In this document: piece by piece, positions 6,455 through 13,649 of the stretch | Layout: the number at the start of each line of letters is the position of its first letter | Numbering within the stretch: the stretch's first letter is position 1 | Assembly: GCA_003211695.1 (NCBI GenBank) | Contig: QCSA01000007.1 | Span: 1-58,276, forward strand | Reading direction: 5' to 3' | Length of the DNA: 58,276 bases | From: Pelagibacteraceae bacterium AG-464-P07 | GTDB taxonomy: Bacteria; Pseudomonadota; Alphaproteobacteria; Pelagibacterales; Pelagibacteraceae | The notes under the pieces: model-generated | Databases searched by the model: none | The model's input: the letters and a program-made list of their open reading frames with translations, nothing else | What the model was told of the DNA's origin: nothing | Made by a program: the position numbers and the translations under genes

Positions 6455-8557
6455 CTACAGAACTTCTCTTTTTCCTACATGATTTGCTTTACTGACTATT
6501 TTATCATCTTCCATCATATCGATTATTCTTGCGGCTCTATTATAACCAATCTGTAATTTCCTCTGTAAAAAAGAAGTAGATGCTTTTCCTTCAGATTTTA
6601 CTAATTCAATCGCATTCTTATATAATTGATCTTTTTTTTCATTCTCATTAAAACTTTGATCATATTTTTTCTTGTCAACAAAACTCATTATTCCATCAAC
6701 ATAATCGGGTTTTTCTTGTGATCTTAAAAAACTATTAATTTTTTCTATTTCATTTTCAGAAACATATGGCGCATGAATCCTTATAATTCTGTTAGCAGAT
6801 GACATAAACAACATGTCACCTTTTCCTAGCAATTGCTCTGCTCCTTGTTCTCCAAGAATTGTTCTACTATCTATTTTTGAGCTGACTTGAAAGGAGATTC
6901 GTGTTGGAAAATTTGCTTTAATTGTTCCGGTAATTACATCAACACTAGGTCTTTGTGTTGCCATTATAATATGAATTCCGGCAGCTCTAGCCATTTGAGA
7001 AAGTTTTTGAATATAATTTTCAATTTCTTTTCCAGCTACCAACATTAAGTCTGACATTTCATCAACAATCACGACTATATAAGGCATAACTATTTTATTA
7101 TTATTGTTGTAACCCTCGATATTTCTGACTCCTTCTCTAGTCATTAACTTGTATCTGTTTTCCATTTCTTTAACGACCCATCCAAGAGCTGATGTTGCTT
7201 TTTTAGCTTCTGTAATTACAGGACACAGTAGATGAGGTATTCCTTCATAGGTTGATAATTCCAACATCTTAGGATCAATTAATATCAATTTACATTTTTC
7301 TGGTGTTAGTTTGTATAAAAGAGATAATATAATAGTATTAATACAAACCGATTTACCTGACCCTGTAGTGCCAGCGATTAACAAATGTAGCATAGCAGTT
7401 AAATCCTCTATAATCGGTAATCCCGAAATACTTTTTCCTAATGCAATAGGTAAATTAATCTCTCTTTTTTTAAATTTTTCATCAGAAATAATCTCACTTA
7501 AAAAGACATTCTCTCTAGCTTGATTAGGAATTTCAATTCCTACCGTGTTTTTTCCGGGTATTGTAGCAACCCTTGTAGAAAGAGAGCTTGTGTTTCTAGC
7601 AATGTCATCAGAGAGATTAATTATTTTAGAAACTCTTATTCCAGGAGCAGGCTCAAACTCATATAAAGTTACAACAGGGCCATGACTAATTTTTTTGATC
7701 TTTCCTTCAATATCAAAATCTGAAAAAATTTTTTCTAAAAGCTCAGGATTAGCATGTTTGTTATCTGAATTTTCGAATTTTAAATAATTTTTTGAAGATT
7801 TTTTCAAATATTCAATTGGAGGTAATTTTAATTTTCTTGTAATGAAATTTTTTTCAACTTTTTTAAAAGGCAAGTTAGGTTGAGTAGTTTCAGTTTTAAT
7901 ATTTTCATTAATTTTTTTTTCCAAATTTATTTCGACATCAGAATTAAAATTTTTTTGTTTTAATTTTGAAAAAAAAAATTTCTTCATAAAAAGTAATACC
8001 GATTTTATTAATCTGATAAAAGTCTTGATATTGAATTGGATACTTAATAAGAAGAAAATTATTGTTAAACTTAATAATAAAAAAAAGATTATATTTTGAT
8101 CAACTGATCCATTAAAGCTATAAATAAATTCTTTTATATTACGACCAACAAAACCCCCATTTCCATTTATGATTAACCAGAAAGAATCATCTTTATAAAT
8201 ACTTGTAACCGTGGAACCGGAAATAATATAAATTATCGAATAAAATAAATTTGATAAAATATTTTCAAGCTTTTTACATTTAATTATTAATATACCTGTA
8301 AAAAAAATAGTAATACAAAATAAAAATGAAATTATACCAAATGATTGTAAAATTAGATCCGATATAACACTTCCATAAAATCCGAATAAATTCTGTATTT
8401 TTGTATTTTCTGAAACTATAAAATTTGGATCTTCGGGCGTGTAAGTAGATAGGGATAATAAAAGAAAAAAAGATAATAAAACTGTTAATAAACCAATAAT
8501 TTCAATAATTCTTTTATTAAAAAAACTAGATATTTTTGAATAATTTGCTGATTGCAT
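6455..8557 (-). CDS. ftsK: FtsK/SpoIIIE DNA translocase
   Basis: Septal DNA pump coordinating chromosome dimer resolution with division. The N-terminal part has four or so hydrophobic membrane segments (about residues 17-40, 60-85, 95-115, 155-175), then a short Lys/Asn-rich linker. The motor follows with PIALGKSISGLP, Walker A GTTGSGKS (about 395-402), Walker B LILIDPKMLELS and MATQRPSVDVITG. A winged-helix gamma domain at the C-terminus (SEGKASTSFLQRKLQIGYNR, then AARIIDMMEDDKIV) reads KOPS polarity sites. At 700 residues the linker is short compared with enterobacterial FtsK. Confidence 0.96.
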   Translation of the reverse strand: MQSANYSKISSFFNKRIIEIIGLLTVLLSFFLLLSLSTYTPEDPNFIVSENTKIQNLFGFYGSVISDLILQSFGIISFLFCITIFFTGILIIKCKKLENILSNLFYSIIYIISGSTVTSIYKDDSFWLIINGNGGFVGRNIKEFIYSFNGSVDQNIIFFLLLSLTIIFFLLSIQFNIKTFIRLIKSVLLFMKKFFFSKLKQKNFNSDVEINLEKKINENIKTETTQPNLPFKKVEKNFITRKLKLPPIEYLKKSSKNYLKFENSDNKHANPELLEKIFSDFDIEGKIKKISHGPVVTLYEFEPAPGIRVSKIINLSDDIARNTSSLSTRVATIPGKNTVGIEIPNQARENVFLSEIISDEKFKKREINLPIALGKSISGLPIIEDLTAMLHLLIAGTTGSGKSVCINTIILSLLYKLTPEKCKLILIDPKMLELSTYEGIPHLLCPVITEAKKATSALGWVVKEMENRYKLMTREGVRNIEGYNNNNKIVMPYIVVIVDEMSDLMLVAGKEIENYIQKLSQMARAAGIHIIMATQRPSVDVITGTIKANFPTRISFQVSSKIDSRTILGEQGAEQLLGKGDMLFMSSANRIIRIHAPYVSENEIEKINSFLRSQEKPDYVDGIMSFVDKKKYDQSFNENEKKDQLYKNAIELVKSEGKASTSFLQRKLQIGYNRAARIIDMMEDDKIVSKANHVGKREVL

Positions 8558-8684: not shown

Positions 8685-8759
8685 GCGGGAGTAGCTCAGT
8701 GGTAGAGCGAAACGTTGCCAACGTTTAGGTCGAGGGTTCAATTCCCTTCTCCCGCTCCA
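8685..8759 (+). tRNA. tRNA-Gly (anticodon GCC), CCA encoded
   Basis: A complete cloverleaf: acceptor GCGGGAG pairs with CTCCCGC, D-arm GCTC/GAGC, anticodon stem AAACG/CGTTT with loop TTGCCAA (anticodon GCC), T-arm GAGGG/CCCTT with loop TTCAATT, discriminator T and encoded CCA at 8757-8759. Bases 8712-8760 are repeated exactly at 11176-11224, and the last 24 bases (8737-8760) again at 9561-9584, marking this gene as the insertion site of the islets that follow. Confidence 0.97.
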
Positions 8760-8797
8760 ATATTCCAAGTAACCACTCACTTTTTGATTTTGGATTG

Positions 8798-8817
8798 TCA
8801 CACACTTGTCACACACT
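8798..8817 (+). repeat. CACAC doublet 1 (11-bp period)
   Basis: Two copies of TCACACACT starting at 8798 and 8809, 11 bases apart, about 40 bases after the tRNA and 50 bases before the 198-codon gene. Similar doublets occur at 9481, 9608 and 11018. Confidence 0.6.
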
Positions 8818-8867
8818 TTTTTCAAAGATAATTGTTATGAATAAGATGTTGGGTTAAACTAAACCCA

Positions 8868-9464
8868 ATGAAAAAACTATCTACTTACCTGTTTTTAATT
8901 CTCTTCAGTTTCTCAGCACCCTCTTTTTCTGCTGATATATCCGAATATGAAATTGAGGGAATTAGTATAGGCGATAGTTTATTAGATCATCTATCCAAAG
9001 AAAAAATAATAACTGGAATAGAAAGGACCAAACCCGCGTATAATTATTTAACCGACGAGTTTGGAGAAGTATATTTGTTTGGTAAATTTGAAATTTATGA
9101 TCGCTTGGCATTTAAAGTAAAACCAAATGATAATAATTATATAATTTATAGTATAAAAGGATCAATTTCATATGACGATAAATTAGAACAGTGTTTTGCA
9201 AAGCAAAAAGAAATTGTAGAAGATTTTTCTTTATTATATGAAAACGCTAGAAAAGTTGAACAAACTCCTGTATTTCCATTTGATCCTACTGGTAAAAGCA
9301 AAAGTCATAACATCCTTTTTATTTTTGATTCAGGAGATGAAATTAAAGTCGCTTGTACAGAATATGAAAAAAGTCTAAAAATTAAAAATAATTGGGATGA
9401 TAGTCTTCAAATTGTAATTGCAAAAAAAGAAATTATTGCTTGGTTGCGTAATCATATCAATTAA
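8868..9464 (+). CDS. secreted protein of unknown function, islet cargo
   Basis: 198 residues. A clear signal peptide (about residues 1-21: MKKLSTYLFLILFSF, cleavage near SFSA-D) is followed by EYEIEGISIGDSLLDHLS, a beta-rich middle and a C-terminal segment with one Cys (KVACTEYEK) besides one Cys near residue 106 (LEQCFAKQK), which could form a disulfide in the periplasm. I do not recognise a family. It is the only gene between the tRNA-Gly and the 24-base copy of the tRNA 3' end at 9561, and is bracketed by CACAC doublets at 8798 and 9481, so it is the cargo of a very small islet. Confidence 0.8.
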   Translation: MKKLSTYLFLILFSFSAPSFSADISEYEIEGISIGDSLLDHLSKEKIITGIERTKPAYNYLTDEFGEVYLFGKFEIYDRLAFKVKPNDNNYIIYSIKGSISYDDKLEQCFAKQKEIVEDFSLLYENARKVEQTPVFPFDPTGKSKSHNILFIFDSGDEIKVACTEYEKSLKIKNNWDDSLQIVIAKKEIIAWLRNHIN

Positions 9465-9480
9465 TTGTTATGGTGCAGAG

Positions 9481-9501
9481 GCACACACTCGGCACACACT
9501 C
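9481..9501 (+). repeat. CACAC doublet 2 (11-bp period)
   Basis: GCACACACTC starts at 9481 and again at 9492. It follows the 198-codon gene by 17 bases and is of the same type and period as the doublet at 8798 on the other side of that gene. Confidence 0.6.
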
Positions 9502-9560
9502 TTTTTTAAATTATGATTATTACCGTTGTGGTTTAAGGGTTTTTGGATTTGGCGTATTAC

Positions 9561-9584
9561 TTCAATTCCCTTCTCCCGCTCCAA
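9561..9584 (+). repeat. attachment-site relic: copy of the tRNA-Gly 3' end
   Basis: 24 bases identical to tRNA-Gly bases 8737-8760 (T-loop through CCA plus one base). The sequence upstream of it is not tRNA-like. This is what a tRNA-targeting integrative element leaves at its distal end. Confidence 0.8.
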
Positions 9585-9607
9585 AATTTTCACGTTGCTA
9601 GTCTAAT

Positions 9608-9635
9608 GATCACAATTTGATCACACCTGATCATG
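9608..9635 (+). repeat. GATCACA array (periods 11 and 10)
   Basis: GATCACA at 9608, GATCACA at 9619 and GATCATG at 9629. It shares CAATTTGATCACAC with the doublet near 11018 and directly precedes the 35-base arm at 9632. Confidence 0.55.
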
Positions 9636-9666
9636 CTCTACGGTGTACGGAACACGTTGCCAACGT
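9632..9666 (+). repeat. element arm with anticodon stem-loop core, copy 1
   Basis: 35 bases that match 11154-11188 at 33 positions. The last 13 bases are the symmetric ACGTTGCCAACGT of the tRNA-Gly anticodon stem-loop; the part before it only distantly resembles the tRNA D-arm. After 9666 the sequence leaves the tRNA. Confidence 0.6.
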
Positions 9667-9848
9667 CTGTGTCCTTTGTTCTTGTCCCCTGCTAATCCTT
9701 AACAATTTCATAAGTAAATCCTGTTGGCTGCAGTGTGGGACGCAGTTTGTCTCATTAACAAAAGGAATAAAGACATGGCTTACATACGGTCACGCAGGGA
9801 GAAATTTTTATTTTAAATAATCTTCTATCGAATTATACTTATTGAATT

Positions 9849-10076
9849 TTGATTTATCTAAAGATAACATTTGTTACAATTATTGCGTTGATTACAATTA
9901 TATCTGCAGCTATACAGATTACCTTTGATTCTGATCAAACACTTAATAATATTTTAAAATGGAACTATTTTTGCTTTTTATTAACTTTCTATCTTTTGTC
10001 CGCAATATTCTGGAAAAAAAAATTAATAAATAACGTTTGTTTTTTAAAATTAAACACAAAATGCTTATTAATATAA
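9849..10076 (+). pseudogene. truncated paralogue of the downstream membrane protein (C-terminal fragment)
   Basis: 75 codons from a TTG with a stop two codons earlier in frame. Residues 1-57 align without gaps to the last 56 residues of the 261-residue protein encoded just downstream: shared landmarks are NNI near residue 33, WNY at 38-40, YLLS at 48-51 and a terminal WKK. It would keep two membrane helices only. The N-terminal three quarters is missing, so this looks like a decayed duplicate. Whether the fragment is still translated cannot be told. Confidence 0.6.
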
Positions 10077-10077
10077 A

Positions 10078-10863
10078 ATGAAGGAAATTATAACAATTCG
10101 TATTTCTAGTATAATAATTTTTTTACTGCCTATGCTAGCAATCAATTTAAGTTTGTTATTTAACAATTATATATCCCTGTACAGTGTGGACGATTATAAA
10201 TTTATTTTATCCATTTATGATAAATTTCCGATTTTAGAACGAATACATTTAAATGCCCTAGAAAAACATTACCTGCTTACTGAAACAACTTTACCATATA
10301 TAGATGGAAGAATATCAATAAGTGCTGCTGTAAGGGGTTATTATACAAATAACTTTATATTTAAGCCTGCTATTTTTTTATGTTGTGTTTTCATGTTTTT
10401 GTATTGGAATAATTATAAGAACATTATGAAAAAAATTATAGAGACAAAAAAATCTGAAATTAATTATTTTTTCATTGCCGGTGTTGCTTCTACAATTTTT
10501 TTATTTTTACATGCTTATTTTTTAGGCAAACCAGATTGGAAAGAACTTTATAATGTTGACCTCTACAAATTATTCAGAAGATTTATTATTATTTCATTTA
10601 TTTTATTAGAGTTGACTGCACAATTTCTTTTAGTAATTAAACTAACAAAAATAAGAAAAAGTATACTTCACTTAATAAAACAAAAAGTTTTATGGATTAA
10701 ATTGAGTTTTAGTATTTTTTTAATAATATTTACTATTGTAGTTGCCTTGGTGATGAGTTTTATAAATCAAAGTGATGCTTTTAATAATATCGTTGAATGG
10801 AACTATGTTATGCTTCTTTTAGCCTATTATTTGTTATCATTTTTTATTTGGAAGAAAGTCTAA
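10078..10863 (+). CDS. multi-spanning membrane protein of unknown function, islet cargo
   Basis: 261 residues with about five hydrophobic segments: residues 10-30, 98-116, 135-155, 168-190 and 211-232, plus a last one ending in FFIWKKV. Between the first two lies a roughly 65-residue loop with EKHYLLTETTLPYIDGRISI. I recognise no family. It starts two bases after the truncated paralogue and is the main cargo between the tRNA relics at 9632 and 11224. GATCACAC arrays lie on both sides of the pair (9608 and 11018). Confidence 0.7.
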   Translation: MKEIITIRISSIIIFLLPMLAINLSLLFNNYISLYSVDDYKFILSIYDKFPILERIHLNALEKHYLLTETTLPYIDGRISISAAVRGYYTNNFIFKPAIFLCCVFMFLYWNNYKNIMKKIIETKKSEINYFFIAGVASTIFLFLHAYFLGKPDWKELYNVDLYKLFRRFIIISFILLELTAQFLLVIKLTKIRKSILHLIKQKVLWIKLSFSIFLIIFTIVVALVMSFINQSDAFNNIVEWNYVMLLLAYYLLSFFIWKKV

Positions 10864-11017
10864 AAACCCCAGTCCACATACTTAACATTATGTGTATGCA
10901 AGATAATGACTCGATCTTTTTGAGTGTAGGAAAACAGAGTTACTTAAAAATTTCAAATTCCAAAATCAAAAGAGACTCCTTTTGCAGCGACCATTGTGAT
11001 TCAATCTGACTCAATTT

Positions 11018-11035
11018 GATCACACTGATCACACT
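11018..11035 (+). repeat. GATCACACT doublet (9-bp period)
   Basis: Two exact tandem GATCACACT units. The flanking CAATTTGATCACAC is shared with the array at 9608, which lies on the other side of the membrane-protein cargo. Confidence 0.6.
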
Positions 11036-11149
11036 AAATCGTTGAAATCTCATACAATCTATGATTCAATAAACGTAGAGACTTTGTTATGAATTATTGT
11101 GAAAACAGAGGCATAACAACGTTAGAAAGAGACAAAGCGAGAGATAGTT

Positions 11150-11224
11150 GGGACATGCTCTGCGGTATACGGAACACGTTGCCAACGTTTAGGTCGAGGG
11201 TTCAATTCCCTTCTCCCGCTCCAA
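11150..11224 (+). repeat. distal attachment site: degenerate tRNA-Gly copy with intact 3' half
   Basis: Bases 11176-11224 repeat 49 bases of tRNA-Gly exactly, from the anticodon stem through CCA. The preceding bases (11150-11175) align only loosely to the tRNA D-arm and cannot form an acceptor or D stem, so this is not a working tRNA. The 5' arm 11154-11188 is shared with 9632-9666. This marks the right end of the insertion at the tRNA-Gly gene. Confidence 0.82.
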
Positions 11225-11259
11225 ATCGGAAAAATAAAAAAAATTTTTCAATCAGAAAG

Positions 11260-12036
11260 TTAAAGACTAAAATTATTTGAAAGAAACCATTTTTTAAATC
11301 TGTCATTTATAATTGAGATCTCATTATTTGAAAAATGTTGTTTCCATTCTCCATCTTTGTAATTTGATATATGACCAGTTTGAAAACCTGTTTTTTCATC
11401 GAATATTCTTATATTATTTTTATCAAAAGTAAGTAAATTTTGCTTATATATTTTTTGTTTTTTTTTTATCTTTTTTTTTATAAAAATTTCCTTTTTTTTT
11501 ATCATTTCAGATACTTTTTCCTTTGAAAATTTTTTAATAATTTGGTCAACTATTTTTTTGTTAATTTCTAAATTTAAAAATTTTTCTAATTGAAAAAAAA
11601 TTTTTCTAGGATTATTACCTATATCTTTAAAATTAATTTCTAATAAATTTTCCTTTTCAAAATTTTCTCTATAATGCCAAATTCTATTTATAGAATTTTT
11701 AATAAAATTTATAGATTGTTGAAAACTATAATTTTTTAATTTCATAAAACGTTTGTATGATATTACTGCGTCCCGCGGATCTCTGATATTAATTAATATT
11801 TTCGTTTTATTTGTGTACTCTTTTTTTATTAATTTATGAATTTTGATTATTGAAATAAAATCATTTTGATTTTTTAAATTTCTAAAGTGATAATCTAACA
11901 TTTGATCATCGTCTTGTGGTATGTGTAAAGGAATAATTTTTTTTTCCAGATTAACAAATATTTCTCTTACAACATTATATATCCACATTCCTCCAGTTCT
12001 TGGTGCAGATCCAACTATTATGCTTTTATAATTCAT
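11260..12036 (-). CDS. sulfotransferase-family protein
   Basis: 258-residue P-loop sulfotransferase. The 5'-phosphosulfate loop is IVGSAPRTGGMWIYN (about residues 7-21, where PRSGTTW is usual) and the 3'-phosphate site is INIRDPRDAVISYKRF (about 82-97). The C-terminal FQTGHISNYKDGEWKQHFS matches the family's GxxGDWKxxF region that closes over PAPS. The middle contains a Lys-rich stretch (EIFIKKKIKKKQKIYKQN). The acceptor is unknown; a surface polysaccharide or lipid is plausible. The gene ends 36 bases past the tRNA-Gly islet and is extremely A/T-rich with long homopolymers, as expected for a variable surface-modification gene. Confidence 0.8.
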   Translation of the reverse strand: MNYKSIIVGSAPRTGGMWIYNVVREIFVNLEKKIIPLHIPQDDDQMLDYHFRNLKNQNDFISIIKIHKLIKKEYTNKTKILINIRDPRDAVISYKRFMKLKNYSFQQSINFIKNSINRIWHYRENFEKENLLEINFKDIGNNPRKIFFQLEKFLNLEINKKIVDQIIKKFSKEKVSEMIKKKEIFIKKKIKKKQKIYKQNLLTFDKNNIRIFDEKTGFQTGHISNYKDGEWKQHFSNNEISIINDRFKKWFLSNNFSL

Positions 12037-12108
12037 TTATTTATTACTTCCAAAATTTTTTATTACCTTTTAAAATAATTAAATTTTGATTAATTTAAAA
12101 GACAAAGA

Positions 12109-13308
12109 ATGAGATACCACATGATAAAAAAAAATATAATGATTTCTCTGTTGTTTGCTCTTAGTATTTTTTTTCTATGGAAATCGGGTATTCTTTATAC
12201 TTATAGTCTTTCTCCAGTTATTAAGGAAAATCAACTGCACATTTTTGCAGATTGGGCTACACCAATTAAATTAGCAATATGTCATCAATTAGGCTTTAAC
12301 GTTTTTTATACTAGTTCTTGCCTTAATTATCCTTTTAATTATGGTAACATTTTATTATATATTCCATATTTTAAATCGCTTGAAAAATTTTATTTTTTTT
12401 ATATTCCAATCATAATATGTTTTTTATTTATTTTCTCGATTGTTAGTTTAATTAAGCCAAAAAATTTTTTTGAATTTTTTTTATTAATATTAATAATTTT
12501 TGCTCCATCAAGTTTACTTGCTATTGAAAGGGGTAATACTGACATTGTAGTTTTTCTCTTTATTGTATTGATTGTTTATTTCAATTCTTCAACATTAAAC
12601 TTTTTAATTTTAACTTTAGTAAGTTTGGCAAAATATTATCCACTTACTTTAATGGTAAATTTTTTTATTGAAAAAAAGAGATCAATAATACAGATAATAA
12701 TAACTTTATTGTTATTTATAATGACCTTTGGTTTCTTTTTTTACCTAACTGGTGAAAGTTTAGAACTCTTTCAACATAAATTGAAAATGATTTCTCCTAC
12801 ATGGGGAAATCAGTTTTCAATTAGAGGCTTATCGTTAGTTTTGAAAAAATTAAAAGATTTTGATTATTCTACAGTTTTAATTATCAGTTATATTTTTTTC
12901 ATTTTTTCTTCAATCGTTTCATTTAAAATTTTTCAAAAATCAAATTTTATTTCAAAAGTAAATATTTCTTTTTTTGAAGAAAAATTATTTATATTAGGTG
13001 GTAATTTATCTATTTCTGTTTATTTGATATCTGATAATGTACATTATAGGGAAATATTTTTAATTCTACTTTTACCATTCGTAATAAAATTAAAAGACAA
13101 TTTTAAAATTAAAATATTTAAATATTTGTTCTATTTTATTTTATTTAAATACATTTTTTTTATCTTCGCAAATTATTTTATTATGTTTAAGATGTATTTT
13201 ACTTTTATATATATCAAAGCATTTTTTGATATTGTTTTAGTTAGTTTATTTACAGCTATTTGTGTTATTATGAATATTGAGATTTTGAAACAATTTACAA
13301 AGAAATGA
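12109..13308 (+). CDS. GT87-like polytopic membrane glycosyltransferase
   Basis: 399 residues with about nine to ten hydrophobic segments spread over the whole length. The first long periplasmic loop has FADWATPIKLAICHQLG (about 45-61), and LAIERGNTDIVVFLFIVLIV (about 140-159) followed by a K-x-x-P motif (AKYYPLTLM) is the pattern of GT-C polyprenol-phosphate sugar transferases (GT87/DUF2029). The sugar and acceptor are unknown. The start could be 12109 or the next ATG at 12121. It diverges from the sulfotransferase, and its last four bases overlap the next gene (ATGA). Confidence 0.65.
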   Translation: MRYHMIKKNIMISLLFALSIFFLWKSGILYTYSLSPVIKENQLHIFADWATPIKLAICHQLGFNVFYTSSCLNYPFNYGNILLYIPYFKSLEKFYFFYIPIIICFLFIFSIVSLIKPKNFFEFFLLILIIFAPSSLLAIERGNTDIVVFLFIVLIVYFNSSTLNFLILTLVSLAKYYPLTLMVNFFIEKKRSIIQIIITLLLFIMTFGFFFYLTGESLELFQHKLKMISPTWGNQFSIRGLSLVLKKLKDFDYSTVLIISYIFFIFSSIVSFKIFQKSNFISKVNISFFEEKLFILGGNLSISVYLISDNVHYREIFLILLLPFVIKLKDNFKIKIFKYLFYFILFKYIFFIFANYFIMFKMYFTFIYIKAFFDIVLVSLFTAICVIMNIEILKQFTKK

Positions 13309-13649
13309 CACAACTTTCAGAAAAAAAATGTATCCCTTGTGAAGGAAATATTTCAGCTTTCAATTATTCTGAAATTCACAAATATTTAAAAAAAGTAAAT
13401 GGTTGGGAAGTAAAACAAAATAATAAAAAAAGTTATTATTTAGAAAAAAATTTTAAATTTAAAAATTTTTTATCTAGCCAAAAATTTGTTAATTTAGTAG
13501 GAGATATTTCAGAAAAAGAAGGTCACCATCCAGATATTAATTTTGGATGGGGATATGGCAAAATTAAAATTTATACTCATGCAATTAACGGCTTATCTGA
13601 GAATGATTTTATTCTAGCAGCAAAAATTGATAATATTTCTAATGTTTAA
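13305..13649 (+). CDS. phhB: pterin-4a-carbinolamine dehydratase
   Basis: 114 residues. Dehydrates 4a-hydroxytetrahydrobiopterin, normally recycling the cofactor of aromatic amino acid hydroxylases. The active-site signature EGHHPDINFGWGYGKI (about 70-85) and the C-terminal HAINGLSENDFILAAKID are diagnostic. The N-terminal Cys pair (KKCIPCEG) is common in the family. No hydroxylase is nearby, so another folate/pterin role is possible. It overlaps the glycosyltransferase by ATGA and the purH stop by 11 bases tail to tail. Confidence 0.9.
   Translation: MTQLSEKKCIPCEGNISAFNYSEIHKYLKKVNGWEVKQNNKKSYYLEKNFKFKNFLSSQKFVNLVGDISEKEGHHPDINFGWGYGKIKIYTHAINGLSENDFILAAKIDNISNV

Follow-up and report, generated by a model that had tools for sequence, protein, structure and literature searches.

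The tRNA-Gly locus and its two small units

The window, meaning the whole stretch of 58,276 nucleotides that we analysed, is contig C7 of the host genome (G000), a metagenome-type assembly of 1.14 Mb in 46 contigs that is 83% complete. G000 was placed in the same genus as an assembly labelled 'uncultured Candidatus Pelagibacter' (G001) and is therefore of the SAR11 type. The sole tRNA gene detected in the window by ARAGORN is a tRNA-Gly(GCC) next to ftsK. The stretch 8,712–8,760 of this gene is repeated at 11,176–11,224 (49/49 bases) and its last 24 bases at 9,561–9,584 (24/24), where a 24-mer match by chance in 58 kb is negligible; both copies, reported in a first-pass annotation of the sequence, are real. 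At the distal copy, homology reaches weakly upstream, with 91% identity over tRNA positions 10–76. The copies close two stacked units, whose features are collected in Table 1. As the annotation had stated, the open reading frames comprise one secreted-protein gene in unit 1 and a membrane-protein gene plus a truncated paralogue in unit 2, and neither the ORFs nor Pfam reveal a recombinase gene in either unit. A search of the whole of G000, at its 83% completeness, with PF00589 returned one gene only, of 324 aa and Xer size, and no other integrase.

Table 1 Features of the tRNA-Gly locus (window coordinates)
Feature	Position	Strand	Basis or remark
ftsK	6455..8557	-	Pfam FtsK domains, E 4e-63; syntenic in relatives; conserved left neighbour of the site
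tRNA-Gly(GCC), intact attachment gene	8685..8759	+	ARAGORN
Unit 1, 824 bp, integrase-less islet	8761..9584	+	Between tRNA 3′ end and 24-nt copy; missing at empty sites
Unit 1, putative left arm-type repeat pair, GTCACACACTT x2	8797..8820	+	37 bp from tRNA copy; pairs with right end, p 0.001
Unit 1 cargo gene sec198, secreted-type, 198 aa	8868..9464	+	ORF; homologues in 42/397 family genomes
Unit 1, putative right arm-type repeat pair, GGCACACACTC x2	9480..9503	+	Before right core; left-right match p 0.001
Unit 1 attR, displaced tRNA 3′ end, 24 nt	9561..9584	+	Exact copy of tRNA-Gly 3′ end
Unit 2, 1640 bp, integrase-less islet	9585..11224	+	Between 24-nt and 49-nt copies
Unit 2, putative left arm-type repeats, TGATCACA, period 11	9607..9626	+	Repeat scan; left-right match p 0.001
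Internal copy of unit 2 right-end core (tRNA mimic)	9632..9690	+	Repeat analysis
75-aa ORF, partial paralogue of the gene that follows	9849..10076	+	35% to residues 204-260 of the 261-aa protein
Unit 2 cargo gene, 261-aa membrane protein	10078..10863	+	ORF; family in 252/397 genomes
Unit 2, putative right arm-type repeats, TGATCACAC x2	11016..11035	+	Repeat scan; left-right match p 0.001
Unit 2 attR, element-borne tRNA-like 5′ part (11154-11175) + 49-nt tRNA 3′ part	11154..11224	+	End common to G001 contig C25, z 14.6
Further variable segment, sulfotransferase + 399-aa membrane protein	11225..13304		Pfam sulfotransferase; missing where tRNA abuts PCD
PCD (pterin dehydratase-like), then purH	13305..13649	+	Syntenic in 33 relatives; conserved right neighbour

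Relatives share a common frame at this locus, consisting of ftsK, tRNA-Gly, a variable region, PCD and purH. We compared the 33 relatives in which the tRNA and PCD are placed together, taking the gap between them from coordinates. This gap is at most 100 bp in 19 of them, giving an empty site, and spans 0.34–23.8 kb in the other 14; several occupied sites (G035, G113, G082, G069) close with a copy of the tRNA 3′ part. The empty sites and the variable content show that the two units are insertions and not a fixed arrangement. Precise empty sites, other cargo and size variation, for which the first-pass annotation had pointed to related genomes, are thus all present, and the outcome that it regarded as fatal to its reading, the same genes in all relatives with no size variation, is contradicted by the 19 empty and 14 occupied sites. 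The same observations support its view that the stack arose by repeated insertion at one site. Its boundaries were drawn too narrowly: the two units do lie within 8,685–11,224, but the variable region is larger, as 11,225–13,304 is also missing at empty sites. This further segment is not followed by a tRNA repeat and is probably an older insertion.

Paired end repeats and elements with shared ends

Each unit carries paired direct repeats of ~11 bp near both ends, resembling the arm-type sites of integrases. In unit 1 and in unit 2, the match between left and right ends beats all 1000 shuffles (p 0.001 each), and in unit 2 repeats of the TGATCACA type lie close to both ends. Left-right identity of the repeats extends to two G000 islets at tRNA-Leu genes and to elements in G001, G082 and G069 (p 0.001–0.009 with the window units included), while matching arms were undetected in 6 of the 13 islets tested (G145 tRNA-Ser, G113, G035, two tmRNA units and L175). 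The repeats stand at a near-fixed distance from the tRNA copy, about 35–50 bp on the left, regardless of gene orientation, and the adjacent gene in G001 and G082 is oriented toward them. Their sequence varies between target sites and agrees between the two ends of one unit. A motif built from four of six matched ends occurs, with up to two mismatches, at those 6 sites in 77 genomes, all of them tRNA-Gly element ends (0 for the reversed control); the informative part of this count is that the motif occurs nowhere else. From these sequence properties we infer that the repeats bind an integrase. The same 11-bp repeat pair was seen about 40–60 bp from tRNA-Ser copies or fragments in three gammaproteobacterial assemblies (L167, L169, L175); in one of these (L175), a tRNA-Ser 3′ copy closes a unit of 1.5 kb. 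We set these matches aside as proof of arm sites; the left and right arms of L175 do not match. A broader motif scan of IMG/VR yielded one match, with no tRNA nearby.

The ends of both units recur in G001. On contig C27 an element starts at the same tRNA, and its left end is 44/48 identical to that of unit 1 at the same position (0/300 shuffles); on contig C10 the right end of an element resembles the right end of unit 1 (0/300 shuffles). The genes inside the C27/C10 element or elements differ from the unit 1 cargo. Over a stretch of about 190 bp, the right end of unit 2 likewise has a counterpart at the end of contig C25 (z 14.6), where the cargo is again different. Ends are thus conserved between the two genomes and cargo is not. 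Among 55 genomes, the unit 2 core motif occurs only in G000 (twice) and G001 (once). The G001 contigs stop before any integrase; a 235-aa ORF considered for this role was rejected, as neither Pfam nor PHROG matched it and visual inspection revealed no tyrosine-recombinase motif.

A much larger element occupies the same tRNA-Gly in the freshwater SAR11 single cell SCGC AAA028-D10 (G069). It is 23.8 kb long and encodes a tyrosine-recombinase-like protein (PHROG integrase, 1.5e-12; Pfam Int_N, 1.9e-4) together with a serine recombinase of the resolvase type. A second freshwater SAR11 single cell, SCGC AAA028-C07 (G082), has at the same tRNA a 2.4-kb unit (C2) without a recombinase, containing two genes only, for a hydrolase and a beta-lactamase-like protein. 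The ends of this unit and of the G069 element are near-identical (z 32 and 37), making the two an integrase-bearing element and its recombinase-free twin at one tRNA; since both are single-cell assemblies, the shared ends are not binning products. The same right end closes a 1.2-kb unit in G113. One gene of the G069 element, of unknown function, has a homologue in only one other place in 78 genomes, the left end of the G001 element, and a tyrosine-plus-serine recombinase module is common to the elements of G069, G082 (C7) and G041. Such integrases are rare, being found in 3 of 77 genomes, although a distant integrase could escape detection. The left ends of unit 1 and the G069 element cannot be aligned beyond chance (z 1.6) and have only a degenerate repeat in common, so we take the G069 integrase as a model of the helper and not as the helper itself. 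In IMG/VR, an exact search with the tRNA 3′ 23-mer hit unrelated phage tRNA arrays only, an exact search with the unit 2 core had no match, and the G069 integrase and a 318-aa protein had no relatives.

sec198 as recurrent islet cargo

Homologues of sec198 are often present in many copies per genome. The protein belongs to no named family in Pfam, NCBIfam and PDB sequence searches. In fold searches, the structure predicted for it (pLDDT 88) is moderately similar to PsbP, DcrB and Eag-type chaperone chains (Z up to 6.5, Foldseek E 1.9e-3), which may serve as a lead only. A tRNA, tmRNA or fragment lies within 1.5 kb of 16 of the 30 best sec198 loci, versus 0 of 29 control Xer loci from the same family, in a comparison that used a library of only 13 tRNA/tmRNA types and control loci that are orthologous and not fully independent. 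G000 itself has two further sec198 islets, one at tRNA-Leu(CAA) that precedes a 56-nt tRNA copy and one at tRNA-Leu(TAG) that precedes a 64-nt copy; left and right repeats match in both (p 0.001 and 0.003, respectively). Other homologues are located at tRNA-Ser, tRNA-Thr and tmRNA, the closest (71%) at a tmRNA fragment.

The 3′ end of groEL is a second attachment site, with the core TTACATTCCCATTC (L177:847-13742, L113, L112/L186, L115), and sec198 homologues (52–67%) are found nearby in three genomes. In G082 (C7, L177:847-13742) the site holds a 12.9-kb tyrosine-integrase element with the same core, whose arms match those of a sec198 islet in G130 (p 0.001; one islet tested). Some loci are more elaborate. 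In G252, G138 and G250 (L119, L121 and L114), small units form arrays in which four to seven partial copies of the permuted tmRNA stand between them, and in G151 (L125) a segment of about 13.9 kb with ten sec198 homologues is bounded by tRNA-Thr and a 47-nt repeat of the 3′ part of this tRNA. In G145 (L068:2150-3930), sec198 homologues are located 5′ of tRNA-Gly and the 5′ half of the tRNA is duplicated; this is an insertion from the other side of the gene.

Probable mobilisation of the units and comparison with known systems

Judged on sequence evidence, the two units are probably non-autonomous integrative elements placed by integrases acting in trans. Each would consist of cargo between two end segments holding what a tyrosine integrase needs, namely a tRNA-identical core and, at a distance of about 35–140 bp, arm-type binding repeats of ~11 bp in tandem. 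An integrase from elsewhere, encoded by a larger element like the 24-kb one in the related single cell or by a transient visitor, would join the circular unit to the 3′ part of tRNA-Gly. Integration would restore the tRNA and push the old 3′ end downstream, and a later insertion would fall between the tRNA and the earlier unit, building a stack with the newest member nearest the tRNA. As insertions would land at the intact tRNA, unit 1 would be younger than unit 2. The units differ in crossover zone or core length and in their arm repeats, which probably reflects two integrases.

The first-pass annotation had proposed that units this small were either mobilised in trans or stripped remnants, an alternative that our data support, favouring the former without proving it. 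The remnant account, the main rival, supposes that large integrase-bearing elements entered, suffered internal deletion in place and are now immobile. It draws on the lack of a visible helper integrase in G000, the existence of a larger element with such ends, the decay represented by the truncated paralogue in unit 2, and units elsewhere that have one recognisable end only (G113). We nevertheless regard it as unlikely: the proteins of the G069 element have left no remnant in the window, the G082 C2 unit or the G113 unit, several separate islets retain both end-repeat pairs, and small units with the same cargo family occupy several target genes, so that the same deletion would be needed many times. 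The units thus appear to have moved as such and not to have shrunk in place. SAR11 bacteria recombine at high rates, and conserved ends could act as short homology, so strains already carrying islands at tRNA-Gly might have swapped cargo by ordinary homologous recombination, with no site-specific event behind the present units; this is improbable given the precise empty sites, ends shorter than 100 bp and core copies that, at several targets, coincide exactly with tRNA 3′ ends.

Three further readings concern the repeats, the tRNA copies and the assembly. The ~11-bp repeats resemble promoter boxes such as Pho boxes (two TGTCA repeats 11 bp apart), and one of 10 database matches, in Polaromonas (L166), precedes a phosphate-binding-protein-like gene. 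Promoter function in place of arm sites is however very doubtful for repeats whose spacing from the tRNA copy ignores gene orientation, whose second pair lies behind the cargo, and whose sequence follows the unit and differs between targets. A chimeric assembly across repeats is slightly less credible still: G000 is in 46 contigs and contigs from G001, G016 and G035 are broken close to the site, but the same architecture is present in single-cell genomes, and in the window all three copies lie within one 58-kb contig with conserved flanks. The notion that the copies are decayed tandem tRNA genes, raised by the first-pass annotation as a possible objection, can practically be dismissed. It fails for unit 1, where the copy comprises 24 nt only, and is disfavoured for unit 2. 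There the distal copy does have weak homology to tRNA positions 10–27, but the tRNA-like part preceding the 49 nt is common to the end of G001 C25 and to the internal copy at 9,632 and is therefore element-borne; moreover, in some relatives the tRNA adjoins PCD and no copy is present.

Islands of CIME type that lack an integrase, and stacked cassettes with tRNA repeats, are already known, and the window units are of the same general kind as these. Cis-mobilizable elements (CIMEs) still have attL and attR but no integrase or transfer genes, and they form tandem arrays at their target gene; by definition they are ICEs or IMEs that have decayed and are moved in cis through accretion (PMC5704250). 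The window units likewise retain both att sites, as judged by core copies and end repeats, and ORFs and Pfam reveal no integrase or transfer genes. With regard to an origin by decay, the ends of similar units match larger elements, and no remnants of element genes were found in the window, the G082 C2 unit or the G113 unit. Unlike CIMEs, SAR11 units of 0.8–2.4 kb share intact ends while their cargo differs, and they occur at many targets. Intact shared ends and recurrence at many targets suggest trans mobilisation of a standard small form. Genomic islands at ssrA in Dehalococcoides are also stacked and separated by 3′ repeats of the RNA gene, 15 of them without an integrase (PMC3146451), but they involve a CcrB-like serine recombinase, whereas at the SAR11 loci the matched large elements have a tyrosine recombinase, and paired arm-type repeats occur.

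Additive flexible genomic islands, or tRNA cassettes, in Methylopumilus (PMC10872708) and Actinomarinales (PMC7771536) are small cassettes of streamlined aquatic bacteria marked by a partial tRNA repeat. The window units share with them the partial target-tRNA repeat at the cassette end and variable content between relatives at a conserved locus; the parts of those accounts available to us describe neither end sites nor a helper integrase or recurrent cargo family. Tycheposons of marine bacteria target tRNAs, encode a tyrosine recombinase and span 4–200 kb, according to the summaries in PMC10872708 and PMC11389934. At 0.82 and 1.64 kb and with no recombinase, the window units fall outside that class, and they also lack the recombinase and mobilisation genes of IMEs and ICEs. 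Integron cassettes and CALIN arrays consist of small units that a recombinase moves in trans (PMC11389934); their boundaries are attC sites, whereas those of the window units are tRNA parts with tandem arm repeats, as judged by the tRNA copies and not by an attC model. In the literature compared, which includes little from subscription journals, we found no units this small that have both paired end sites and a matching integrase element at their target, along with a cargo family that recurs; an earlier description is possible.

SAR11 cells are among the most abundant on Earth, and their genomes are very small, have few recognised mobile elements and are hard to manipulate. For such a streamlined genome, gene gain through units reduced to one gene and the end sites would come at low cost. 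We tentatively raise the broader possibility, which we hold with rather less than even confidence, that SAR11 and other streamlined marine bacteria have a general system of standardised mini-elements, each with one cargo gene between two integrase-binding ends, inserted at tRNAs, tmRNA and groEL, stacked in arrays and spread in trans by integrases from a few rare carriers that move a large pool of single genes. This would in effect be a tRNA-anchored analogue of integron cassettes. Such units would also explain the tRNA-flanked cassettes reported in other streamlined bacteria, and the paired end repeats make them findable by sequence and the helper testable. Finally, tRNA-like core copies were observed inside islets, at 9,632–9,690 of the window and at L108:4180-4211; these are perhaps decayed att sites of older units.
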